Position numbers and translations under genes: made by a program. Of a DNA stretch of 64,000 nt, positions 1,537 through 31,541 are shown piece by piece. Source of the DNA: an uncultured Deferribacteres bacterium (GTDB lineage: Bacteria; Zhuqueibacterota; JdFR-76; DREG01). The notes below the pieces were generated by a model. It saw only the letters and a program-made list of their open reading frames with translations, was not told the origin of the DNA and did no database searches. The stretch is from contig CAJVYQ010000020.1 in NCBI GenBank assembly GCA_913009825.1, positions 1-64,000 of the forward strand. The letters run 5' to 3'. Within the stretch, counting starts at the first letter, position 1. Every line of letters begins with the position of its first letter.

Positions 1537-2220
1537 ATGTCTGTAATCACTATTTCGCGGGGCAGCTTTTCCGGCGGAAGAGATTATGCCGAAAAGTTAA
1601 GCAGGGAGTTGGGGTGCCGGGTACTCAGCCGTGAATATCTTGCCGAAGAAGCCACTCAAATGCGCGTTCCGGTTGGTAAGATGCAGACGGCTATGGCACA
1701 CCCGCACCGGGTTTATCATCGTAAGGGAAAAGAGCGGGAAATTTATCTCGCCGGTATGACTCCATTGTTTTGTAAACATATTTTAAACGGCGATATCATA
1801 TATCATGGTCATACCGGCCATTTTTTGCTCACCGGCATTCCCCATATCCCGCGCATTCGTGTTTTGGCCAATCCGGAAAATCGTATTCTTTATGTCATGC
1901 AAACTTTAAAACTATCCCGGGAAAAGGCGAAGCAATATATTGAGGAGGTGGATAGCGGCCGGGATAAATGGGTGCGTTTTCTCTGCAATGTGGATTGGCA
2001 CGATCTCTCCCATTACGATTTGCTTGTTCATCCGGATCAATTATGTATTGCCAATGCCGCTTCTGCACTTTATCCGTTGGCAGATCTGCCGGATTTTAAA
2101 CTCACACCCGCCTCTGACGGGTGTGGACGTCATTTTGATCAGCATTGCCAGGGCTTATTTAAAACCTTAATTGAGCGATTGCAGGGCGATTCGCTGAATC
2201 GCCAATCGGATTTAGTTTAA
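1537..2220 (+). CDS. Cytidylate kinase-like family protein (PF13189-like), C-terminus formed by a MITE
   Basis: N-terminus MSVITISRGSFSGGRDYAEKLSRELG is the cytidylate-kinase-like P-loop variant. YHGHTGHFLL and IEEVDSGRDKWVRFLCNVDW motifs are shared with the CDS at 8281. Confidence 0.8.
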   Translation: MSVITISRGSFSGGRDYAEKLSRELGCRVLSREYLAEEATQMRVPVGKMQTAMAHPHRVYHRKGKEREIYLAGMTPLFCKHILNGDIIYHGHTGHFLLTGIPHIPRIRVLANPENRILYVMQTLKLSREKAKQYIEEVDSGRDKWVRFLCNVDWHDLSHYDLLVHPDQLCIANAASALYPLADLPDFKLTPASDGCGRHFDQHCQGLFKTLIERLQGDSLNRQSDLV

Positions 2221-2282
2221 AAATGAAAATCCGTTTAGTAATAAAAACAAGCTCAAAAATAAGAGAATCACTCAATTCAGGT
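2167..2282. repeat. MITE-like element, family C copy 1 (TIR TGAATTGAGCGATT)
   Basis: ttaattgagcgatt ... aatcactcaattcaggt; nearly the reverse complement of 9214-9330 along its whole length. Confidence 0.85.
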
Positions 2283-2366
2283 AAAAAGAAGAAAAGTTAA
2301 AGGCTATGTCTCCTCTCTCGGTGCATAACCATTTATTCTCATCCTCTCCGGTTTGTCGGGAAAAAG

Positions 2367-3896
2367 ATGGCAGATGAATCTGAAAAAAACGGTGCCGGAC
2401 AAACAGCGGAACTGTCTTCGGAAGAAGAAAAACAGGCGGAAGAAACCCAGCGGGCTTTGCTGGAACGTCCGCAGATCAGTATCCGTTTACGGATCACACT
2501 GAGTTTTTTATTACTTTTTATAATCCTCTGCGGTATGGGCATTGCCTCTTTCCTGTTCATAACGCAATTTGACAGCAAACAAAAATTCCTGGAAACCACT
2601 TCTAACTATGCTTTCGAAGTTCAACAGGCCCGGCGATACGAGAAAAATTTTTTCCTCTATGGAACCAATCTTAAAGATGCTTTAAGTAATGTTCAGGCTG
2701 CGCAAAATGTGTTGCGTTTTGACCGGGAAGATATGATCTCTGTGATCGGGGATGAAAAATTTACTGAAATGGAACAAAGCCTGAACCGGTACGAAGCGCT
2801 GCTCAACCGGGTGCACTCGTTGCATCGTAGTTCAAATCCCGCCGATAGTCTTAAATTAATCCCCCTTGAATCGGATTTACGCAAATATGGCTCGGAAATT
2901 CTTGCCAATGCATCTTCGGCCATTAACCAGGAACGGCTGGAGATTTACAGGCTGATTTCAACCGGGAAATTTGCCGTTGTTGTTTCCCTGATTTTTTTCC
3001 TTCTCTCCATCGGCTACATCATCAGTTTTTTGACCCGGCAGATTCTACGCCCCATCAACCGGGCAATCGAATACACGCAGCGGATTGCGGAAGGCGATTT
3101 TTCGCCGGTGAAACCCATGCGCAAATACCGGGATGAATTTTCTAATCTGGCCATGGCCCTCAATAGGATGATTCATGAAATTCGTGCCCATCAGGATCAA
3201 CTCACCCAATCCCGGAAAATGGCGGCCATCGGCAATTTAACCGCCGGTATTGCACATGAATTGAACAATCCACTCAATAATATCAGCCTGACCACCGAGA
3301 CGCTGTTAGAGGATTTTGATGATTATTCGAAGGAAGAAAAGTTAAAAATGTTGCACGACATTTTTGACCAGGTGGAGCGCGCCGGGTCAACGGTTCGGAA
3401 TTTACTTGATTTTACACGAGTGGAAAAACCGATATTTACTTCGGTATCTGTAAGTGAATTAGTGAACACTACACTGAAACTGCTGAAAAATGAATTTACT
3501 CTGAATGATATTCAAGTGGAACCGGAGATCGATAAGAATCTGCCGCCTGTGAACGGTAACCCCAAAAATTTACAGCAGGTTCTTCTCAATCTTCTTCTCA
3601 ACGGTGTTCAGGCTATGCCGGATGGCGGGACTTTAAAAGTGAAATCAACGCTGAAAAAAGATGGATTCATCCGGATTGATGTTACGGATACCGGAATCGG
3701 CATTCCGTCTGAATATATAGATAAAATTTTCGATCCGTTTTTTACAACCAAAGAAGTTGGCAAAGGAACCGGATTGGGGCTTGCCGTGAGTCACGGGATT
3801 ATCGAAAATCATAAGGGAAAAATTACCGTTTTGAGTAAAATCGGCAAAGGAACTACTTTTTCGGTTTTTCTTCCGTATCAGATAAATCCTTTGTGA
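2367..3896 (+). CDS. Sensor histidine kinase (TM sensor, HAMP, HisKA, HATPase_c)
   Basis: Two TM segments; HAMP-like [19 protein letters not shown]-box [18 protein letters not shown] boxes [43 protein letters not shown]. Confidence 0.93.
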
Positions 3897-3940
3897 AAGA
3901 ATCACGGACATAAAAATTGGGTTTTCGTTCAGGCACTAAT

Positions 3941-4060
3941 TAGAGTCTGTCCGAATTTGTCATCCCCGCATGCTTTTAGCGGTGCTCCTAAGTAGATTCC
4001 CTGCCTGTGCAGACAGGCCGGGATGACAATATCGTGGGTATTTTCGGACCGGTACTAATT
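3941..4060. repeat. Intergenic inverted-repeat element, family D
   Basis: tagagtctgtccgaatttgtcatccccgcatgcttttagc ... gggatgacaat..ttttcggaccggtacta; closely related to 53829-53992. Confidence 0.7.
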
Positions 4061-4096
4061 AAACAAATTGATTGCACTATTTCTTGGGAGGAATTT

Positions 4097-4486
4097 GTGA
4101 AAGAGAAATATGAAATCATGGTTTTAGATGATGAGCCGATCGTTTGTAAGAGATTGCAAAATCACCTGCAAAAAAAAGGATTTTCCGTGGAAACCTTTAT
4201 TACCGGTCAGGAGGCAATGGATCGTCTGGCACAGCACCATTTTCATATTTTGATTACGGATCTGAAAATGAGCGGCGCCGAAGGGATTGAAGTGATCCGG
4301 TTTGCCGGGAAACATTCTCACCGGATAAAAACAATTGTTATTTCCGGTTTTGCAACCAACGAGACGGCTGACGAGGCCTTTAAAGCCGGCGCCGTCGAAT
4401 TTATTGCCAAACCGTTTAAATTAAGTCAAATCAGGAAACTTGTGGAACAATTGGCAGCGGAAATCCGCCTGGAAAATAAATTATAA
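4097..4486 (+). CDS. Single-domain response regulator (CheY-like receiver)
   Basis: VLDDEP, HILITDLKMSG, VISGFATNETADEAFKAGAVEFIAKPF. The ORF track start at 4007 lies inside a repeat; GTG at 4097 is preceded by GGGAGG. Confidence 0.9.
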   Translation: MKEKYEIMVLDDEPIVCKRLQNHLQKKGFSVETFITGQEAMDRLAQHHFHILITDLKMSGAEGIEVIRFAGKHSHRIKTIVISGFATNETADEAFKAGAVEFIAKPFKLSQIRKLVEQLAAEIRLENKL

Positions 4487-4496
4487 TATGAGTAAA

Positions 4497-4720
4497 TAAT
4501 TTCCGGTTAGGTTTTTTCAATTGGCAACATGGTCAAAAAAGAGAACCAAAGCGGTGTTTGCTATTCCGCCCCGTGGTGAACCACGGGGCTAATAATAGAA
4601 AGGACGCTGAAGCGTCCTACGTTGTGAGCGCTATTTATGGCGCTTCCTATTCTTAGTCCCGTAGTTTACTGCGGGACGGGTTTTGTAAATTACGGGGCTG
4701 CAAAAACCTAACCGGAAATA
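4497..4720. repeat. MITE-like element with TIR atttccggttaggttttt, flanked by a 12-bp direct repeat
   Basis: taatttccggttaggttttt (4497-4516) is the inverse of aaaaacctaaccggaaata (4702-4720). Direct repeat AATATGAGTAAA at 4485-4496 and 4725-4736. Confidence 0.75.
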
Positions 4721-4744
4721 ACTGAATATGAGTAAACGGAAATC

Positions 4745-5674
4745 ATGGAAATTCATCTTTATTTACCCATTGCGGAAGTTAGCGTAAATATTTTTACATT
4801 ACTTGGCTTAGGGCTGCTGGTTGGTTTTCTCTCCGGGCTGTTTGGCGTAGGTGGCGGATTTTTGTTAACGCCGCTGCTGATCATGATCGGCATTCCGCCC
4901 ACCGTGGCGGCGGCCTCCGATTCCAATCAGATTGTTGCCGCATCGTCTTCCGGAATGTATGCCCATCTGCGTAAGGGAAATGTGGATATTAAAATGGGCG
5001 TGCTGTTGTTGCTGGGCGGAATCGCAGGCGGTACCGCTGGGGTTCAGATCATCAAGATTTTACGTCAGACCGGCAATGCGGATTTCCTGATTAAAATTTG
5101 CTATGTGGTCATGTTGGGCACGGTCGGTGCGTATATGTTTCAGGAAAGTCTGCGTAATTTGCGGCCGAGAGCCGCCGGGCGCTTAGTGATTGAAGAGGAG
5201 AAAGAGGGCTGGTTCGGTAAATTAAACCGTGCATTGCCGTTCAACATCTATTTTGAAAAGTCTGGAACCAGCATGTCTGTTTTTCTGCCGTTGCTTTTCG
5301 GCATTTTGGTGGGTGTTTTATCGGCGATTATGGGTGTAGGCGGCGGTTTTATCATGGTTCCGGTGATGGTTTATATGCTGCGCATGCCCATGCATGTGGT
5401 TGTAGGAACCAGTCTGTTTCAAATTTTGTTTACTTGTATGAATGTCACGTTCATGCAGGCCTATACCAACCATACAGTTGATTTTGTAATGGCACTTATT
5501 TTGTTACTGGGTTCCACAGCCGGAGCACAGCTTGGCGCCAGGGTAAGCGATAAATTAAAAGCGGATCATTTAAAAATTTTACTATCGATTATTGTCCTCC
5601 TTGTTATGTTTAAAATGCTTTTCGATTTGCTGTTAAAACCGGATCTGCTTCTTGGATTTAAGGGGATGCATTGA
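4745..5674 (+). CDS. Sulfite exporter TauE/SafE family permease
   Basis: Multi-TM; GLLVGFLSGLFGVGGGFLLTPLLI and second-half repeat ILVGVLSAIMGVGGGFIMVPVMVY. Confidence 0.92.
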   Translation: MEIHLYLPIAEVSVNIFTLLGLGLLVGFLSGLFGVGGGFLLTPLLIMIGIPPTVAAASDSNQIVAASSSGMYAHLRKGNVDIKMGVLLLLGGIAGGTAGVQIIKILRQTGNADFLIKICYVVMLGTVGAYMFQESLRNLRPRAAGRLVIEEEKEGWFGKLNRALPFNIYFEKSGTSMSVFLPLLFGILVGVLSAIMGVGGGFIMVPVMVYMLRMPMHVVVGTSLFQILFTCMNVTFMQAYTNHTVDFVMALILLLGSTAGAQLGARVSDKLKADHLKILLSIIVLLVMFKMLFDLLLKPDLLLGFKGMH

Positions 5675-5711
5675 AAAGTGTAAATTTAAAGTGAATGGAA
5701 TAGTTTAATGG

Positions 5712-5945
5712 TTTATAACATTTTAGTTCATTGAAATTGTTAATTCAGTTTCTTACATAAGATAGATGCTTCGACTCCATTCCGGCAAAAACCACCGGAA
5801 CTTCCTGCCTGCGGCGGACACGCGCTCGACATGACATGTTCACCCTGAGCGCGTGTCCCGATGGTTTTTATCGGGATAAAGTTGAAGGGTCTACTTGTTC
5901 CTTCTAATCACAACTAAGTTATTTTCAAAGAACTAAAGTGTTACA
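5712..5945. repeat. MITE-like element, family B (TIR GTAACACTTTAGTTCTTTGAAAA)
   Basis: taacattttagttcattgaaa (about 5715) is the inverse of ttttcaaagaactaaagtgttac (5922-5944). Confidence 0.55.
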
Positions 5946-6131
5946 GTTGTTTGAAAAACGGTGACTATTCAGTGTTTAAATAATGCGGGAACGAAACCCT
6001 GAAAATATTGAAAAGCGATATTCCTGCTCCCCACTTCCGTGAGGATAAACTTTACGGGAATGACAGAAAAGCGGAGTTTTCGCTCAGACGTTAAAAATCC
6101 GTTGACGGTTGCATACTATAATGAGGAAAAC

Positions 6132-7061
6132 ATGGGTATCCATCTCTATTTACCGATAGCAGGAGTCAGTATATCCGCCTTTGCATTGTTGGGGATAGGG
6201 ATTATCGTCGGGTTGATTTCCGGCCTGTTTGGTGTGGGCGGCGGATTTCTATTGACGCCCCTGCTGATTATGATGGGGATTCCGCCAACCATCGCAGCGG
6301 CTTCGGATTCCAACCAGATTGTGGCGGCAACAACTTCCGGAACGTACGCTCATTGGCGGTTGGGGAATGTGGATATTAAATTAGGCTTGTTGCTTCTTGT
6401 GGGTGGGTTTTTCGGCAGCAGTATCGGTGTGGAAATCATTAAGATGCTGCGCAGAGTGGGGAATGCGGATTTTCTGATCAAAATCTGTTATGTGGTTATT
6501 TTAGGTGTCGTCGGCTCGTACATGTTTATGGAAAGCCTGAATAGTTTGAAGAGCAGACCATTCCGAAAAGAGAAAGCCAAACCGGTAGTAACCGGCCGGT
6601 TTGAAAAATTTTCCGGGATTCTGCCGTTAAAAATAAATTTTGAAAAATCAGGTGTCACCATGTCTGTTTTTCTGCCGGTTATCATCGGTTTTATAATCGG
6701 TATGCTTGCTGCCATTATGGGGTTGGGGGGCGGGTTTATCATGGTGCCTGCTCTGATTTATCTGCTCAGGATTCCCATGCACGTGGTTGTGGGAACCAAT
6801 TTATTTCAGGAAATTTTTCTCTGTATAAATGTAACATTTATGCAGGCCTCCCTGAATCATACGGTGGATTTTATCCTTGCGCTTGTTCTGTTGTTGGGTT
6901 CAACCATAGGCGCGCAATTCGGCGCCCGCCTGAGTCACCGGCTCAAAGCGGATCAATTAAAAATTTTATTGGCAACCATTATTCTCTTCGTGATGTCCGA
7001 TATGTTGATCCGGCTAATCTCGAAGCCTGAAACCATACTCTCCATTAAAGGAGCTTTTTGA
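6132..7061 (+). CDS. Sulfite exporter TauE/SafE family permease (paralogue of 4745-5674)
   Basis: GLISGLFGVGGGFLLTPLLIMMGIPPTIAAASDSNQIVAATTSG, highly similar to the upstream copy. Start assigned to ATG 6132 (MGIHLYLPIAGVS matches the paralogue N-terminus MEIHLYLPIAEVS). Confidence 0.92.
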   Translation: MGIHLYLPIAGVSISAFALLGIGIIVGLISGLFGVGGGFLLTPLLIMMGIPPTIAAASDSNQIVAATTSGTYAHWRLGNVDIKLGLLLLVGGFFGSSIGVEIIKMLRRVGNADFLIKICYVVILGVVGSYMFMESLNSLKSRPFRKEKAKPVVTGRFEKFSGILPLKINFEKSGVTMSVFLPVIIGFIIGMLAAIMGLGGGFIMVPALIYLLRIPMHVVVGTNLFQEIFLCINVTFMQASLNHTVDFILALVLLLGSTIGAQFGARLSHRLKADQLKILLATIILFVMSDMLIRLISKPETILSIKGAF

Positions 7062-7861
7062 TGGAATTTACAAAAAAACTGACAATTCCGACACTTCTGT
7101 TTTCTGTTCTTTATTTGATTTATCCGGCGGTGCCTGTGCTGTACGCCCGGGATTCAACTACGGTTCAAAATATGAAGTTGCAAGTACAGCCCGGTGAAAT
7201 TAAAATTTCCGGTTTTTATCACGGATCAAAATTTAATGTTGAAATTTTTGTGCCGGCACATTATGAAATAGCCGTGAAGTTTGCGGGGAAGCCCACTACA
7301 ATTGTGTTGGAAAGAAAGGGACGAAAGGGAATTTTCTGGCTTAATGTGGATGAAATAACTTTGAAAAATACCCCGCAAGCGTACATGCTTTTCTTCTCGG
7401 AAAAACTTTCCGATATGGCGCCAAAGGATACCATACTCTCACTGGGATTGGGGTATGATGCCTTGAGCCGGCAGATTGAAGGAACAGGAGGGCAGATCGA
7501 AAAACGGGAGATGCTGACTGAATTTTTCAGATTCAAAGAAAAAAGTAAATTGTATCATATCTCAAACGAAATGTTACAGCCGGAAAATTCGTCGGATCCG
7601 TTTGAACGCTACTCATTCCTCATTCCGGTTAATTCCGCCATGCCTGTCGGCGAATATCAGGTCGTTGTCTATTTCTTCAAAGATGGAAAATGTGCAAAAA
7701 AACTGAGTGATACTCTGACCATTCAAAAAGTTGGTTTTGTTAAGTTTGTCTTCGACATGGCTTTGGAGCACGCCGCTTTATACGGTGTACTTGCTATATT
7801 GATTGCTGTGGTCGCAGGATTTTCAATCGGCATTTTGTTCAATTTTTTAAAGAAAAAATAA
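7058..7861 (+). CDS. TIGR02186/PF09608-like transmembrane protein
   Basis: Signal peptide, VQPGEIKISGFYHGSKFNVEIFVP, C-terminal TM. Overlaps the TauE stop codon, as expected for the TauE-associated family. Confidence 0.75.
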   Translation: MMEFTKKLTIPTLLFSVLYLIYPAVPVLYARDSTTVQNMKLQVQPGEIKISGFYHGSKFNVEIFVPAHYEIAVKFAGKPTTIVLERKGRKGIFWLNVDEITLKNTPQAYMLFFSEKLSDMAPKDTILSLGLGYDALSRQIEGTGGQIEKREMLTEFFRFKEKSKLYHISNEMLQPENSSDPFERYSFLIPVNSAMPVGEYQVVVYFFKDGKCAKKLSDTLTIQKVGFVKFVFDMALEHAALYGVLAILIAVVAGFSIGILFNFLKKK

Positions 7862-7892
7862 CCGTCCGGTTGGTATAACCGAGGGAAGTTCA

Positions 7893-8276
7893 ATGGTCAA
7901 AAAAATCCATATTATGGTGATTGACGATGAAAATATTGTTGTCACCCGGCTGAAGGCCTCTTTGGAAAAATATGGCTATGTGGTGAAAGTTTTTACCCAT
8001 AGCGAGCAAGCGTTGCAGGAGCTTTCACGACATCATTTTGATATGATAGTTACCGATTTGAAAATGCCCGGTGTGGATGGAATGGAAATCTTTCGCTATG
8101 CGCATACCCATTTTCCGGAGATAAAAATCATTATCATTTCCGGCTTTGCTACGGTGGAAACCGCTAAAGAGGCATTTAAAAAAGGAGTGTACGATTTTTT
8201 CGTCAAACCGTTTCGTATTAGTCAATTGCGTGATATTGTCAATAAAGCAGTAGAAGAATTGCAAAATAAAGGGTGA
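7893..8276 (+). CDS. Single-domain response regulator (paralogue of 4097-4486)
   Basis: VIDDENIV, MIVTDLKMPGVDGME, IISGFATVETAKEAFKKGVYDFFVKPF. Confidence 0.92.
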   Translation: MVKKIHIMVIDDENIVVTRLKASLEKYGYVVKVFTHSEQALQELSRHHFDMIVTDLKMPGVDGMEIFRYAHTHFPEIKIIIISGFATVETAKEAFKKGVYDFFVKPFRISQLRDIVNKAVEELQNKG

Positions 8277-8280
8277 AATT

Positions 8281-9102
8281 ATGGCTATTATAACTATTTC
8301 CCGGGGTTCTTTAAGCGGCGGCCAAATGGTTGCCGAAATGTTATCGAAACAGTTGCACTATGCGGCCATCAGCCGGGAAGTGATTGTGAAAGCTACGGAA
8401 AAATATGGCGTGCCGGAATTTAAACTGTACGAGGCGATTCAGAAAAGTCCTACATTTATACAGAGGCTGACTTTTGAACGGGAAAAATATCTCGCCATTA
8501 TTCAGGCAACCCTGTGTGATTATGTGAAAGATGACAATGTGATCTATCACGGTCATGCCGGTCATTTTTTACTGAAAGGGATCTCTCATATTTTGCGCAT
8601 CCGGATTCTCGCGCCGATGGAATTTCGGATACAGCAGGCGGTGAAACGACAAAACCTTTCCGAAAAAGAGGCGATAAAATACATCGAAGAAGTGGACAAA
8701 CAGCGAAACAAATGGACGAAATTTCTGTACGGCGTCGATTGGCGCTCCCCTGAACTGTATGATATGATTTTTAATATCGAAAATTCCGATCTGGAATTTG
8801 TCTGCAATATGATTGAATTTGCCGTGCAGCAAAAGGAGTTTCAAACAACGCCGGAATCTCATCAAGCGCTGTTGAATCTTCTCCTTAGCAGCCAGGTGAA
8901 AGCCGCTCTTACCAAACTTCCTCATGTCCGGTTAGGTGAATTTGATGTTGTAGCTGATAAAGGGAATGTGAAAATAACCGGAAAAATTAAATCGGAAGAT
9001 GCCTTAGCGGAAATTTTAGCAGCTGCCGCCAAAGTTCCCGGTGTAAAAAAAGTTGCGTCGGAGGCAAAAATTAATTATCGCTATCAGGGCATCGATAATT
9101 AG
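8281..9102 (+). CDS. Cytidylate kinase-like protein with C-terminal BON-like domain
   Basis: MAIITISRGSLSGGQMVAEMLSKQL; YHGHAGHFLL; C-terminal VKAALTKLPHVRLGEFDVVADKGNVKITGKIKSEDALAEILAAAAKVPGVKKVASEAKI fits the BON pattern. Confidence 0.82.
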   Translation: MAIITISRGSLSGGQMVAEMLSKQLHYAAISREVIVKATEKYGVPEFKLYEAIQKSPTFIQRLTFEREKYLAIIQATLCDYVKDDNVIYHGHAGHFLLKGISHILRIRILAPMEFRIQQAVKRQNLSEKEAIKYIEEVDKQRNKWTKFLYGVDWRSPELYDMIFNIENSDLEFVCNMIEFAVQQKEFQTTPESHQALLNLLLSSQVKAALTKLPHVRLGEFDVVADKGNVKITGKIKSEDALAEILAAAAKVPGVKKVASEAKINYRYQGIDN

Positions 9103-9330: not shown

Positions 9331-9588
9331 GTACAATAAACATCTTCCAATTTGATGTGATCTTTTGGGGATGATTCCCGGCATAAATGACCGGTAATAT
9401 GATAAAAGGATTAAAAAAATTGCGTATGAAGAAAATTGTTTTGAGCTACTGAATATCTTTTGACTTTCGGTAAAAAAAATAATAGATTCGCTACATTTTG
9501 AAAAATGCTCGATGAACCCAACGAAGATAGATTTGAGATTCTTTTAATCTGATTGAATTTGGAACTCACCCAAGAATATGGAGCGGAT

Positions 9589-10965
9589 ATGAAATATGAC
9601 AAATTAGCCATTTCAAATAAAAATGACCTCATTTTTGGTTCAACCAAGTTTCCTGTTACCACTCCGCGAGGGTTAAAGATTGGTGGAGGTAAAGTTTACC
9701 CGGAATTAAATTTTACCCTGCCTCCCATGCATATTAACGATGAGACTTTTTCTAATATCAGGGATCAGTATAAACAGATTGTTACGGAGGCTATAGAGAG
9801 AGCCATTCACTTAGAGTCTGATGGACTTGTCCTGGAATTTGAAACACTCCTGGAAATGACCATGAATCCTGCTTATGGTGTTGAACTGATCAAAGAAATG
9901 AACGATATTTGCGAAAATGCTTATCAAAAGTCCGGATTTAAAAGTGAAATTCGGCTAACGCCAAACGATACCCGAGACTTTGACCGGCCGCCAAAGCTGA
10001 GAACCGGCGTTTATCTTAATAATATGCTGGAGTTATTTGAACATGGCGCCAATAATGGCGGTAACCTGTTGTCCATTGAAAGTACCGGTGGAAAAGAGAT
10101 TTTTGATGAAGCGGTTATGATGTGTGATATTAAAACAGTTCTGTTTTCCCTGGCTGTACTCGGTGTGCGGGATATGAGTTTTCTATGGAAAAAAATTGTT
10201 GACATCGCCAACAAAACCGGAACAATACCAGGTGGTGATACGGCATGCGGTTTTGGCAATACCGCCATGATGCTGGCGGATAAGGGTTACATTCCAAAAA
10301 TATTTGCTGCCATTGTTCGAATTGTCACTGTTGTGAGAACACTGGTTTGTGTAGAAGAAGGCGCCCTTGGGCCAGATAAGGATTGTGGTTACGAAGGACC
10401 ATACCTTAAGGCCATTACCGGAATCCCAATTTCCATGGAAGGTAAAACATCTGCCTGTGCCCACATGACTACTGTGGGAAATGTGGCGGCTGCCTGCTGT
10501 GATTTGTGGAGTAACGAATCAGTTCAAAATATTAAACTGCTTAGCGGGATGGCGCCTACTGTGTATCTGGAACAATTGGTCTACGATGTGAGACTTTTTA
10601 ACCAGGCTATTTCACATGGGAAGGAGATGGCTTTGGGATTGCAAAATTTATTGATCGAATCAGATATCCATTATGATCCTCAGGCACTCATACTTGCTCC
10701 GCAACATGTGATTTCCATTGCTAATGAAATTGTTACAGGGGATTCTTATTTAGAGGCTGCGGTTCTCGGCAGCTTAAAAGGTCTTGAGATTATCGAGCGA
10801 GCCATTAAAGACGGCAGTCTTAAAATTGACGGCAGAGAACTAACATGGTTGAATAAAATCAGGGAAGAGGTTGCATCCGTCCCCATAAAGGAGGACGAAT
10901 TTATCCAATCTATTTTGCCCTTTATCGATGAATCAAAATGGTTTCCCGCAGAATATGGTTTATAA
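9589..10965 (+). CDS. mtaB: MtaB-type methanol:corrinoid (Co-)methyltransferase
   Basis: NLLSIESTGGKEIFDEAV, KTGTIPGGDTACGFGNTAMM, GALGPDKDCGYEGPYLKAITGIPISMEGKTSACAH, CCDLWSNESVQ match remembered archaeal MtaB motifs, with Zn ligand Glu and two Cys positions kept. ATG 9589 has an upstream GGAG; the ORF track uses TTG 9553. Confidence 0.88.
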   Translation: MKYDKLAISNKNDLIFGSTKFPVTTPRGLKIGGGKVYPELNFTLPPMHINDETFSNIRDQYKQIVTEAIERAIHLESDGLVLEFETLLEMTMNPAYGVELIKEMNDICENAYQKSGFKSEIRLTPNDTRDFDRPPKLRTGVYLNNMLELFEHGANNGGNLLSIESTGGKEIFDEAVMMCDIKTVLFSLAVLGVRDMSFLWKKIVDIANKTGTIPGGDTACGFGNTAMMLADKGYIPKIFAAIVRIVTVVRTLVCVEEGALGPDKDCGYEGPYLKAITGIPISMEGKTSACAHMTTVGNVAAACCDLWSNESVQNIKLLSGMAPTVYLEQLVYDVRLFNQAISHGKEMALGLQNLLIESDIHYDPQALILAPQHVISIANEIVTGDSYLEAAVLGSLKGLEIIERAIKDGSLKIDGRELTWLNKIREEVASVPIKEDEFIQSILPFIDESKWFPAEYGL

Positions 10966-26708: not shown

Positions 26709-29700
26709 ATGAAATATCGCTTTCTGCAATTGATTGTAATCTTTCTTGTTTACCCGCTGCATTCTATCTCAGCCGGTCAGGATGTCGAACAAAAAAATCC
26801 GGCTGCACTCCGTGTGATCAAACAGGATCAATCCGGCATTCATTTACAGGTTGAATTTGACCGCCGGACCCTGGCCAATCCGGCCAATCTGCAGCGTTTG
26901 ATCCGGCAATCTTTTCTTGTCTGGCAGGATTCTGTTTACGCACATCCGCTGCTAACCCGTTCCTTCATCCCGTTCACACAACATGTAACCGTACAGATTA
27001 TGCACGCCGATTTCCAAACCATTCGTCCGGAAAATATTGCCTTCCCTGTCGAATCGGCCATAGACACCACCGGTCCATCTTTCCCTGCGGATTTGATGCG
27101 CACACAGCCAAATGCTGTCCTGCCCCGGACGCCGCTCATAAAAATCAGTTCCGGGAATATGATCCATGCGGTGAATTTTTATCCCATCCAGCCGGGTGAA
27201 AGTACGGGAGAGTTGCGCTTCTATTACCGCATCGAAGCAAACCTGAATTTCGACTTATCCGCCCCGGTGACGGAATTTAACCATGCAAAGCTTTCTGCTG
27301 CTGAAAATTCCCGGCTGCGGCAAAAGATTATCAATTTTTCTTCCTGGCAGAATTTTCAGCAACAAGTTCAACCCGTGCTAAAAAAAGGAACAGGAACCGA
27401 AAACAATCCCGTTACGTTGCCTCCGGCTTGTAATCTGGTCATTTCCCGGGATGGCTGGTACCGCGTGACCTATGCTCAGTTGAAGGCGGCCGGAGTGCCG
27501 GTAGATTTTTTGAACCCCAAAAGGCTGCAACTGTTTTGCAAAGGAGAAGAAATTCCCATCTATTTTTCCGGCGACGGGGATTCGCGGTTCGAAACGAATG
27601 AAGCGATTGAGTTCTGGGGCGAAAGGAACAGAAACACATATTTTCCCGGTGCGGAGGACATCTTTTATGATCCGTTCTCATGGAACAGCGTTTACGTCCT
27701 GGTCTGGAATCAAAAAACCGGTTTGCGCTACGGAGTGCAAAACAGCCTGAGCTCCACCGGGCGCCGGCCGCCGAAAAAACCGTTCTATTTCCGGCGCAAA
27801 ATCCATGTCGAGGAGGACCACTCCTACTACCGGCTGGGCTGGGCAACTGCGGGCAGCCAACGGGATCACTGGTTCAACACGCAAATTGCATCCGGCGAAT
27901 TGAAAAATATTCCTCTCGATTTACCGATTTCCTATCCGTACTCGCTGGAACCCATTCATATTACATTGTGGTTTCACGGGCGCACCATTAACCAGCATCG
28001 AATCGAAGTGTATTTAAACCGGCATTACATCGGCGCCGGAGAATGGTTCGGCCCGGAAAAATTTAAGTTCACCGCCGAAATAAACGATGCAGGCGGCGCC
28101 ATTTTGGCTGCGGAACGCCACACATTAACTATCGCCAATCGTTCCCCCGATGAGTTGGATTTTGTCCTCTACAACTATCTGGACATAGATTATCCGCAAG
28201 CTTATGAAGCGAAAAACAATTTTTTGCTATTCAAAAAACCGGCAAATGAAAATGCCGGTTTTTTCAATTTTCGTCTTAAAAATTTTACCGATCCCCGCAT
28301 CGAAATATTCAAAATCGGCGCCTATCGCATGTTTAACGCAGATATCCTGGAAACGCAGGATTCGCTCCACCAGGTAACCTACCAGGTGCGGTTTCAGGAC
28401 GAGTGCTACTCCACAGACGACCGCTACGTGGCGTTAACGCCGGCTAAAAAAATGTCGCCGGACACCCTGTTCACTTATCGAACCGATGCGGTTCTCACCT
28501 CCAGGAATAATCAGGCCGATTATCTGATCATCACGCCGGCAAAATTTTCCGAATCTACCAAACTGCAGGAATTTATACAGTTCCGGGCGCAGAAATACCA
28601 GGTAAAATTAGTGAAGACGGAGGATATTTACCGGCAATTTAATTTTGGCATTCCCGGTCCGGAGGGGATCAAAAACTTTCTGCAATACACGCAAAAATTC
28701 TGGCGCCGGCCGGCGCCCGCGTATGTTCTGTTGGCCGGCGACGGCAACTACAACTATCGTTCGGCAGCGGCTCAGAGGAAAAATTACGTGCCGGTCTATC
28801 ATTACCAAACCTACAAATTCGGCGCGGCGGCCAGCGATAATTGGTACGTTACAGACGAAAACGGCCATTTGTCGGATCACCTGCACATCGGCCGCTGGCC
28901 GGTGAAGAATTCGTCCGATTTGGAAATTATGGTCGATAAAACCATCTCGTACGAATCCTCGAATTTGCCGGACCGGTGGCAAAACCGCCTGTTTTTCATC
29001 GCAGGCAACGGGCAGTATTTCCGGGATCAGACCAGCGATATTTTGCATCAGATCGCACCGCCGGCCTTTTTTACCGACCAACTGCACTCCTCTCCGGTGA
29101 ACGATCCGTTTTTCGGCGACACGGAACGGCTGATCGAAACCTGGAATGAAGGCGTCGCCTATGTAAATTTCAGGGGTCATGGCGGCGGCGCCGTTTGGGC
29201 CGACAATCTTTTGTTCCGATTTGAAGATGTGGCGCGGCTGAACAATCAGAACCGGCTGCCGTTTGTCACCAGTATGACCTGCTTCACCTGCGCTTTCGAC
29301 GGTAATTCCAATTTGGGCGAATCGCTGCTGCTTTATCCCGATGGCGGAGCAGTAGCCATGTTGGGCGCTTCCGGCGTCGGCTGGATCTGGAACGATTATT
29401 ACCTGCTGCGTGAGCTATTAACGGAGATGTTCACAGTTCCCGAAGCCACTATCGGGCAGATTATCAGCGCAGGGAAACGCAGCTACGCGCAAAAATATTT
29501 CACGCCGCAGGTTTCTTCCGATCTTCACCAATACAACCTGTTGGGCGATCCGGCGCTGGTTTTGAAACTGCCATGGCAAAAAATTGAATTAACGGTACCG
29601 CTCCACCACTATTCACCGGGCGACTCTATCGATGTTGGTACAGACTTGCTGTTCTCATCGGGTCAAATTATCCTGAAATTACAAAACGAAAACGGACTCT

Positions 29701-31541
29701 CTCTTTCCGAATGGGAAGAGAAAGTACAGGCACAGCGGCAATCGTTTCGAGTGGAGCTGCCGGCGGAAGTTGAACCGGGCAGCTACCGGCTGAAAGCGTT
29801 TGCCTTTTCCGATGATCAAAGTTGGCTGGGTCACGGCGCCGCACAAATATCCGTCGGCGGTTTAACCATCCAACAAATTACCATGGAGCCTCTTTATCCC
29901 ACCGCTGCGGATTCCATCCGCATTTTTACCCACCTCCTGGGTGTAGAACCGAATGATTCGATCCTTGTTTATTTCGCCTACCGGAAGGAAGAAACCGACA
30001 GTCTGGCCATGTACACTGCCGACAAAACCGGAATTTATCAGATCGTCCTGCCACCGCAGTTTGCTGCTGCCGGAGAAACGGTGCCATTTCACGTCACGGT
30101 TGTGAACGGCTCACATATCATTAGCAGCAAAACACAAATTTTGCAAATTTCACAACTACCCGATTTTTCGCTTGTGTCCAACTCTCTTAAAATCGACGAC
30201 TCTGCCTCCGATTTACTTCTCTCTGTGCAAATCAGAAATCACACTTCTTTTTCGGCTGATTCAGTCGATGTTGCTTTTTGGGCAAGTTCATCAATCGATT
30301 CCATTGAAATTCCTCTGGGCACGGCGCTGGTGCAATTGCAACCGTTTCGGCAGACAACTGCGTCTGTGGCATGGTCGCTCGGCCTGGGAACGTACCGGAT
30401 TACAGTCCGGGTCGATCCGCGGCAAAAATATCCCGATGCTAATTTAAGCGACAATTTGATAACGGCTCAAATTACCAGTAAAGCTATGCAGATTACAAGG
30501 GATATCCTGAAACAAGGGGTACTGCGGCAGGAATTTTCAGGCGTAAAAGTTCAATTTGATCTTGCGTCAAATATGTCGGGTCGTGTTTTGCAAATGGAAG
30601 GGAAAGCGTTCATATCCACCCCTCAGCAGGATTTGCAACTCTACACACCACAAAATTGGCCGCAACCGGTCTGGTATACGGGTTTCCGCAACGAAGCGGA
30701 GAATACCGGGGTTACCGCACAATTGGATTTCCAACCGGACAGCCTTACCTTAGCGCTGGTACAGGCAGATACGCAATTGGCGTTATATCACTATTACAGC
30801 AGGGAAAATCGCTGGGCGAAAATTATCGATCAGAAATTGGAAAATGGCGTTATTCACTGTGCCGTGCAATTGGGCAAATTTGCCTGGTTTCACTCCGGCG
30901 ATGTAACCCCGCCCGAGGTAAAAATACTTACGCAAAACCGCGGTTTTTACGACGGCGGTTATGTGCAGAAGAATCCCCGCTTCACCATCAGGGTTGACGA
31001 TGTCAACGGCGCCCATCCCGGTGCGGCAGGATTGTGGTTGACGATCAATGGCCAGCCGGTAACCGGCGAGGATTATGAACTGCGACGCAATTACCAAAAC
31101 GGCTCTCAACTGGTGCAGATTGAATTGGCCGGTTTGTCCGGTGAAAACAAACTACAAGCCGTCGGCCGGGATTGCAGCGGCAATCTGTCGCAATCGCCGG
31201 CAATAAATTTTAGAGTGGCAGATGAGGCGGACATTTTACCGCTGGGAAATTATCCCAATCCGTTCATCGATCAAACGGTATTTGCTTATAAATTGACCGC
31301 CACGGTGAACGATTTACGGCTGAAAATATTCACCGCCTCGGGAAAGTTGATTCGCACCATCAAAGTTGAAGATATTCAGGATGACCCCAATCCCTGCGAA
31401 GTCGGCTATCACGAGATCACCTGGGAAGGACGGAATAACGATGGTGACGACGTGGCCAACGGGGTCTACTTTTTCCAATATGTGGTAAAAAGCGAAGCAA
31501 AAACAATCAAGAAACAAGGAAAACTGGCGCGAATTCAATGA
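26709..31541 (+). CDS. PorU-like C25 (gingipain-family) peptidase with T9SS C-terminal sorting domain
   Basis: VAYVNFRGHGGGAVWADN (His) and PFVTSMTCFTCAFDGNSNLGESLL (Cys); C-terminus LGNYPNPFIDQTVFAYKL..LKIFTASGKLIRTI..GYHEITWEGRNNDGDDVANGVYFFQYVV; stop overlaps the PorV-like gene. Confidence 0.85.
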   Translation: MKYRFLQLIVIFLVYPLHSISAGQDVEQKNPAALRVIKQDQSGIHLQVEFDRRTLANPANLQRLIRQSFLVWQDSVYAHPLLTRSFIPFTQHVTVQIMHADFQTIRPENIAFPVESAIDTTGPSFPADLMRTQPNAVLPRTPLIKISSGNMIHAVNFYPIQPGESTGELRFYYRIEANLNFDLSAPVTEFNHAKLSAAENSRLRQKIINFSSWQNFQQQVQPVLKKGTGTENNPVTLPPACNLVISRDGWYRVTYAQLKAAGVPVDFLNPKRLQLFCKGEEIPIYFSGDGDSRFETNEAIEFWGERNRNTYFPGAEDIFYDPFSWNSVYVLVWNQKTGLRYGVQNSLSSTGRRPPKKPFYFRRKIHVEEDHSYYRLGWATAGSQRDHWFNTQIASGELKNIPLDLPISYPYSLEPIHITLWFHGRTINQHRIEVYLNRHYIGAGEWFGPEKFKFTAEINDAGGAILAAERHTLTIANRSPDELDFVLYNYLDIDYPQAYEAKNNFLLFKKPANENAGFFNFRLKNFTDPRIEIFKIGAYRMFNADILETQDSLHQVTYQVRFQDECYSTDDRYVALTPAKKMSPDTLFTYRTDAVLTSRNNQADYLIITPAKFSESTKLQEFIQFRAQKYQVKLVKTEDIYRQFNFGIPGPEGIKNFLQYTQKFWRRPAPAYVLLAGDGNYNYRSAAAQRKNYVPVYHYQTYKFGAAASDNWYVTDENGHLSDHLHIGRWPVKNSSDLEIMVDKTISYESSNLPDRWQNRLFFIAGNGQYFRDQTSDILHQIAPPAFFTDQLHSSPVNDPFFGDTERLIETWNEGVAYVNFRGHGGGAVWADNLLFRFEDVARLNNQNRLPFVTSMTCFTCAFDGNSNLGESLLLYPDGGAVAMLGASGVGWIWNDYYLLRELLTEMFTVPEATIGQIISAGKRSYAQKYFTPQVSSDLHQYNLLGDPALVLKLPWQKIELTVPLHHYSPGDSIDVGTDLLFSSGQIILKLQNENGLSLSEWEEKVQAQRQSFRVELPAEVEPGSYRLKAFAFSDDQSWLGHGAAQISVGGLTIQQITMEPLYPTAADSIRIFTHLLGVEPNDSILVYFAYRKEETDSLAMYTADKTGIYQIVLPPQFAAAGETVPFHVTVVNGSHIISSKTQILQISQLPDFSLVSNSLKIDDSASDLLLSVQIRNHTSFSADSVDVAFWASSSIDSIEIPLGTALVQLQPFRQTTASVAWSLGLGTYRITVRVDPRQKYPDANLSDNLITAQITSKAMQITRDILKQGVLRQEFSGVKVQFDLASNMSGRVLQMEGKAFISTPQQDLQLYTPQNWPQPVWYTGFRNEAENTGVTAQLDFQPDSLTLALVQADTQLALYHYYSRENRWAKIIDQKLENGVIHCAVQLGKFAWFHSGDVTPPEVKILTQNRGFYDGGYVQKNPRFTIRVDDVNGAHPGAAGLWLTINGQPVTGEDYELRRNYQNGSQLVQIELAGLSGENKLQAVGRDCSGNLSQSPAINFRVADEADILPLGNYPNPFIDQTVFAYKLTATVNDLRLKIFTASGKLIRTIKVEDIQDDPNPCEVGYHEITWEGRNNDGDDVANGVYFFQYVVKSEAKTIKKQGKLARIQ

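Follow-up and report, generated by a model that had tools for sequence, protein, structure and literature searches.

A recurrent module of cytidylate-kinase-like proteins, single-domain receivers and TSUP permeases, very probably tied to sulfate respiration, in an uncultured Zhuqueibacterota bacterium

The first 64,000 nucleotides of contig CAJVYQ010000020.1 (assembly GCA_913009825.1), hereafter the window, come from an uncultured bacterium of the Zhuqueibacterota and carry a locus of eight genes near one end. In order, these encode a cytidylate-kinase-like (CMK-like) protein of family PF13189 (CMK1), a sensor histidine kinase (HK), a receiver (REC1), two TSUP permeases (TauE1 and TauE2), a PF09608 protein, a second receiver (REC2) and a CMK-like protein with a BON domain (CMK-BON). 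A preliminary description had named these families and placed the genes on the same strand, and Pfam confirmed all eight on the + strand. The module is real and recurrent and, as far as the searched literature shows, undescribed, and there is strong reason to regard it as associated with sulfate respiration. The sequences suggest a transport-and-control locus of the sulfate branch; its most likely role, a proposal that we hold at about even confidence, would be sulfate uptake under the control of the receivers and CMK-like proteins.

Evidence for recurrence came from a set of 84,980 species genomes, scanned once with an alignment of CMK/BON proteins for which CMK-BON of the window served as query; 54 loci in named genomes resulted. 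These were annotated over a range of 10 kb, many contigs being shorter, by means of profiles built on the window proteins and their relatives. The genes found within this range were those of TSUP permeases (20), HKs (17), single-domain receivers (15), PPDK-like proteins (14), QmoC (10), AprA (7), PF09608 (7), a small transmembrane (TM) protein (7), DASS symporters (6), AprB (5) and Sat (4), and 11 of the 54 loci contained sat, apr or qmo genes. By comparison, the whole 5.1-Mb host genome holds 7 TSUP genes and 1 PF09608 gene. Members of representative loci were recognized by NCBIfam as AprA (919 bits), AprB (204 bits) and Sat (510 bits); for QmoC, the host protein reached 439 bits against a cut-off of 300, and the Bacteroidota protein, at 231 bits, fell under it. 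The recurrent gene neighborhood that the preliminary description had proposed to look for was thus found in many phyla, across which the set of CMK-like, TSUP, PF09608, HK, REC and PPDK-like genes recombines, the CMK-like protein being in most cases a fusion with BON.

In several genomes of the Zixibacteria and Bacteroidota, the sat/aprBA/qmoC genes include or adjoin the module. In the zixibacterial locus L067, AprA-AprB-Sat is divergent from a string of QmoC, small TM protein, TauE, CMK, TauE, PF09608, REC and CMK/BON. The Bacteroidota locus L075 has CobA, three TauE genes, small TM protein, HK, REC, PPDK and CMK on one strand and Sat, AprB, AprA, QmoC, a small open reading frame (ORF), CMK and TauE on the other. 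Loci of Deltaproteobacteria (L102 and L104) and Terriglobia (L091) combine HK-TauE-PF09608-PPDK-REC with CMK.

At the level of whole genomes, aprA or dsrA was present in 39 of the 48 named CMK/BON genomes versus 4 of 141 sampled CMK-negative genomes (p = 3.7e-27), a comparison in which the genomes are not fully independent and the loci span many phyla. All four sampled genomes with PF09608 contain aprA. The host has a nearly complete gene set for sulfate reduction (sat, aprAB, dsrAB, qmo and dsrMKJOP). Its contig C58 carries aprA and dsrA over the cut-off, and NCBIfam confirmed Sat, DsrB, DsrM, DsrK, DsrP and a membrane pyrophosphatase as well; AprB, DsrC, DsrJ, DsrO and QmoA/B were assigned by position and sequence only, two HdrA-like proteins being in the QmoA/QmoB position. 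An 83-amino-acid (aa) protein encoded directly 3′ of dsrB received no Pfam confirmation as DsrD. An in-frame TAG in some dsrA matches was considered and, in genome G101, is no more than the stop codon of dsrA itself.

A second copy of the module is found on host contig C72, where QmoC, a small TM protein, TauE, a PPDK-like protein, CMK/BON, HK and REC are encoded together. The host qmoC gene (L010, 13488-14714) therefore accompanies this copy and is apart from the QmoA/QmoB-like genes on contig C58 (L138, 156-3674). Among 147 genomes sampled around the host, none of the others from its phylum had aprA, dsrA, PF09608 or a close CMK/BON (E <1e-40), which suggests that the host acquired these genes. 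The same separation of a sat-aprBA-qmoC string from qmoAB is seen in Candidatus Thermonerobacter, a sulfate reducer of the Bacteroidota/Chlorobi, whose description (PMC6338057) does not refer to TauE, cytidylate kinase or a response regulator.

No published description of this gene combination was found in the literature searched, which agrees with the preliminary description, where it was put forward as a candidate for an undescribed system. Some of its parts have known relatives. TauE1 and TauE2 belong to the TSUP (TauE/SafE) permeases of PF01925, which include the putative CysZ-type proteins of sulfate reducers, and TSUP genes near sat/apr have already been noted in some of these organisms (PMC5840216); this survey of sulfate transporters names no partner of the PF09608, CMK-like, histidine kinase or response regulator kind. 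TauE genes overlap PF09608 genes, as in the window, in the alphaproteobacterial TauE-TIGR02186 pairs of S. meliloti pSymB and of a Sphingomonas plasmid, two annotated examples with no HK, REC, CMK or PPDK-like gene beside them. This overlap in rhizobial and Sphingomonas plasmids makes the PF09608 protein a likely permease partner.

Both permeases of the window exceeded the PF01925 cut-off (32.6 bits; scores in Table 1) and have eight hydrophobic segments each. The PF09608 protein, whose gene adjoins a TauE gene, exceeded its Pfam cut-off (24.5 bits) and scored 88.6 bits against TIGR02186 (cut-off, 255), which places it in the Pfam family and outside the alphaproteobacterial equivalog. It is predicted to have an N-terminal hydrophobic segment, a beta-rich domain and a C-terminal TM helix (residues 231-249), and its AlphaFold2 (AF2) model, of medium quality (pLDDT 79), gave no confident match in the PDB. 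Two candidate TauE-PF09608 fusions were rejected: Pfam sees no TauE in the 581-aa ORF of L093, and the 635-aa open frame of G104 is actually two separate genes.

In the Desulfobacterales loci L105 and L114, and also in L113, a DASS symporter gene stands before CMK and HK, and L111 shares this layout, with additional genes for receivers and a PPDK-like protein. A DASS anion symporter takes the place of TauE in these loci while the regulators are kept. This DASS/CitMHS gene (L105, L113 and L114) encodes about 600 aa and lies directly upstream of CMK-BON and HK, with TrkA_C domains in L113 and a USP-like gene nearby. A search for a SulP sulfate permease in the host gave nothing convincing, the sole match being a protein of 389 aa encoded next to a moaA-like gene. 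Sulfate is favored as the substrate because Sat is among the neighbors, DASS replaces TauE and the host has no convincing SulP. The preliminary description had suggested that a sulfur- or organo-anion compound may be sensed and exported. Sensing and transport are supported by the recurrence beside sat/apr/qmo and the co-occurrence with aprA/dsrA, but export as the default direction finds no support, given the DASS replacement in Desulfobacterales and neighbors that, like Sat, act on sulfate.

The H-box (HELNNP) and ATPase motifs of the HK are intact, and TM helices at residues 47-65 and 204-222 flank its sensor region. This region matched that of the TauE-linked HKs of L091, L104, L102, L093, L048 and L049 and of the DASS-linked HK of L111 with E values of 1e-50 or better, and that of the HKs of L105, L113 and L114 at 1e-17 to 1e-20. 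The DDE, TDLK and KPF phosphorylation motifs are kept in both receivers and neither has an output domain, so that, judging from receiver biology, they may act by protein contact. The same arrangement of an HK with output-less receivers is found in CpdR/DivK-like systems; the scores here, however, are well under the curated equivalog cut-offs, and the partners are a transporter and CMK- and PPDK-like proteins. The PPDK-like partner, whose gene is absent from the window, consists of an ATP-binding domain, a PEP-utiliser mobile domain and a conserved C-terminal domain that has no Pfam match and whose medium-quality AF2 model gave no confident PDB match. PPDK-like genes tied to the module are often in tandem pairs (L010, 8778-11438; L048, 1767-7045), and their C-terminal domain is undescribed.

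The CMK-like proteins both exceeded the PF13189 cut-off of 28 bits and did not reach the (d)CMP kinase equivalog TIGR02173 (46.2 and 17.5 bits versus 102.1). In CMK-BON, and in 94% of 72 module CMKs, Gly replaces the P-loop lysine (GxxGxGK) of Cmk, and the arginine position of the GR motif (DGR) of E. coli Cmk is usually His or Asn. Conserved in these proteins are R116, D139 and R142 of the LID region, as in E. coli Cmk, and a module-specific set of residues. Since the nucleotide-kinase-like sequence is kept but the P-loop lysine is gone, they are probably regulators rather than CMP kinases, and a role as non-catalytic nucleotide sensors is plausible. Their kinase-like domain matches the PF13189 structures 3hdt and 3fdi at 2e-14 to 9e-14, which are listed merely as "putative kinase" and "uncharacterized protein"; compared to these, the module CMKs add a BON fusion, a GHAGH-type motif and the link with sulfate genes. 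A PAS/sigma-54 activator-like gene adjoins that of a further CMK-like protein of the host (L009 on contig C52, 8060-10561), and an HK and multihaem-like proteins are encoded nearby.

The gene order of the window had been read in the preliminary description as duplicated and mirrored, an origin that did not hold up. All genes are on one strand, and the paralogues are 65.5% (TauE), 48% (REC) and 39% (CMK) identical. A tree built from 72 CMK-like proteins placed CMK-BON in a clade with proteins of Zixibacteria, Abyssobacteria and genome G105 (support 100/99), and CMK1 joined membrane-anchored proteins of 514-579 aa from other phyla (99/97), on a long branch whose exact placement is unsure. By this tree, CMK1 and CMK-BON are separate old subfamilies, and block duplication behind the mirrored order was ruled out by the tree together with the pair identities of 39-65%. 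A long CMK and a CMK/BON also share one locus with TauE, HK and REC in L049, L104 and L091, which indicates that two unlike CMKs per locus are a recurring arrangement and not a local tandem accident. Proteins of the long subfamily are larger by about 250 residues and end in two TM helices (L049, 10513-12057; L091, 312-2051; L104, 2-979), and Pfam found no USP domain in its members. Homology of CMK1 to these relatives ends at residue 193, and CMK1 looks like a shortened member. TauE1 is 72% identical to the TauE of L048.

In the proposed mechanism, the TauE/TSUP permeases would carry the pathway's oxyanion and most likely import sulfate, each aided by an outward-facing, membrane-anchored partner (PF09608 or, in the version linked to qmoC, the small TM protein). 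The HK would sense a cue outside the cytoplasm and phosphorylate the receivers, which, for want of an output domain, would hand the signal on to the CMK-like proteins through direct contact. The latter would probably be regulators that respond to nucleotides (energy charge, AMP or adenosine 5′-phosphosulfate, APS) and tune transport or electron flow. The broader notion that PF13189 proteins with BON or a membrane anchor constitute a new class of pseudo-kinase regulators is offered tentatively and may well be wrong; they would respond to nucleotides, receive their signal from output-less receivers and gate anion uptake where sulfate respiration begins, for the two unrelated transporter families TSUP and DASS. 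Several observations weigh against sulfate uptake under CMK control. Nine of the 48 CMK/BON genomes lack both aprA and dsrA, and several CMK/BON loci are near neither transporter nor sulfur genes. In G104, one of the four sampled genomes with PF09608, USP-like-TauE-PF09608-PPDK-REC is accompanied by an HK and by a regulator that bears a receiver, but CMK is missing, so that CMK appears to be a frequent but not obligatory part of the module. The wider PF13189 family also lacks the P-loop lysine, a loss that is hence not specific to the module. Two more DASS/CitMHS proteins are encoded elsewhere in the host, which means that TauE is not the sole candidate for sulfate, and function prediction for TSUP proteins from sequence is not feasible (PMC5840216).

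Other explanations account for part of these observations. TauE may act as a valve that exports or re-imports the toxic sulfite from APS reductase, with the signaling proteins sensing sulfite or a redox imbalance between Apr/Qmo and Dsr. Sulfite export has been proposed for the TauE of Cupriavidus, and a homologue expressed constitutively in Archaeoglobus is a putative sulfite importer, both as cited in PMC3949148; the module adjoins aprBA/qmoC, the site of sulfite formation. A DASS symporter standing in for TauE in Desulfobacterales and Sat within the same gene strings argue otherwise, and we consider a role in sulfite handling unlikely, though a serious alternative. That the HK, REC, PPDK-like and CMK-like proteins mainly regulate the activity or expression of Apr/Qmo by energy charge, with the transporters as passengers, would fit the position of the module beside qmoC in the host and in Bacteroidota and the nucleotide chemistry suggested by the PPDK-like and CMK-like parts. 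Such control of electron flow is nevertheless improbable, as TSUP/PF09608 pairs persist where qmo/apr are elsewhere (the window, L102, L104 and L091) and in Alphaproteobacteria, and the regulators accompany DASS too.

A further possibility concerns the CMK-like proteins alone, which may be ordinary, active nucleotide kinases present in transporter operons by chance. The LID-region residues shared with E. coli Cmk and the CMK loci without a nearby transporter are consistent with this view. The change of the P-loop lysine to Gly, the His or Asn usually found for the DGR arginine, and features unlike those of a housekeeping kinase (several diverged copies in a genome, fusion to BON, long forms with a membrane anchor) make it very improbable.

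Sulfate respiration begins with the uptake of sulfate, which is costly in energy. Sulfate reducers are known to alternate between uptake of high and of low affinity (reviewed in PMC5840216), and no paper describing a signaling system for this switch was found. If sulfate uptake under receiver and CMK control is correct, the switch would be directly testable and the module may show how the first step of sulfate respiration is controlled. PF09608 and the CMK-like/BON proteins would gain a function, and the cluster would serve as an indicator of sulfate respiration among uncultured phyla.

Table 1. Genes of the locus, with positions in the window
Gene	Description	Position	Strand	Support
CMK1	PF13189, "long CMK" clade; ends shortly after the kinase-like domain	1537..2220	+	Pfam 3e-28, 99.7 bits
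HK	Sensor histidine kinase; HAMP/HisKA/HATPase, two TM helices	2367..3896	+	Pfam
REC1	Single-domain receiver, no output domain	4097..4486	+	PF00072 87.9 bits; better start codon GTG 4097, moved from 4007
TauE1	TSUP permease	4745..5674	+	PF01925 2.5e-52, 178 bits
TauE2	TSUP permease; opens the tight operon	6132..7061	+	PF01925 6.5e-50, 170 bits; better start codon ATG 6132, moved from 6039
PF09608	PF09608 (Alph_Pro_TM) protein, likely permease partner	7061..7861	+	Pfam 2.8e-44, 152 bits; better start codon ATG 7061, moved from 7058
REC2	Single-domain receiver, no output domain	7893..8276	+	PF00072 101.6 bits
CMK-BON	Cytidylate-kinase-like and BON domains	8281..9102	+	PF13189 3.5e-40, 138.5 bits; BON 2e-9, 38 bits

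From TauE2 to CMK-BON the genes follow each other closely, at distances of -4, 31 and 4 bp, and have the appearance of a single operon. The four genes upstream are loosely spaced (146, 110-200 and 258 bp), with about 457 bp between TauE1 and TauE2. Matches to a sigma-54 promoter pattern were at chance level, and a scan for sigma-70 promoters gave fewer matches than in shuffles. Position 1 of the window is the first base of the host contig (C20). A fragment of a group II intron (D1-D4-6, Rfam RF02005, 82 bits) lies beside the cluster at this contig end, at 508-763 on the - strand, and the contig may thus have broken at a repeat. On the other side, 450 bp 3′ of CMK-BON, a gene for an MtaB methanol-corrinoid methyltransferase (9553-10965, +) is found that was not seen in the recurring set. 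Farther along the window, at 26709-31541 (+), a protein of 1610 aa is encoded that combines a C25 (gingipain-type) peptidase domain with a FlgD-like C-terminal domain.

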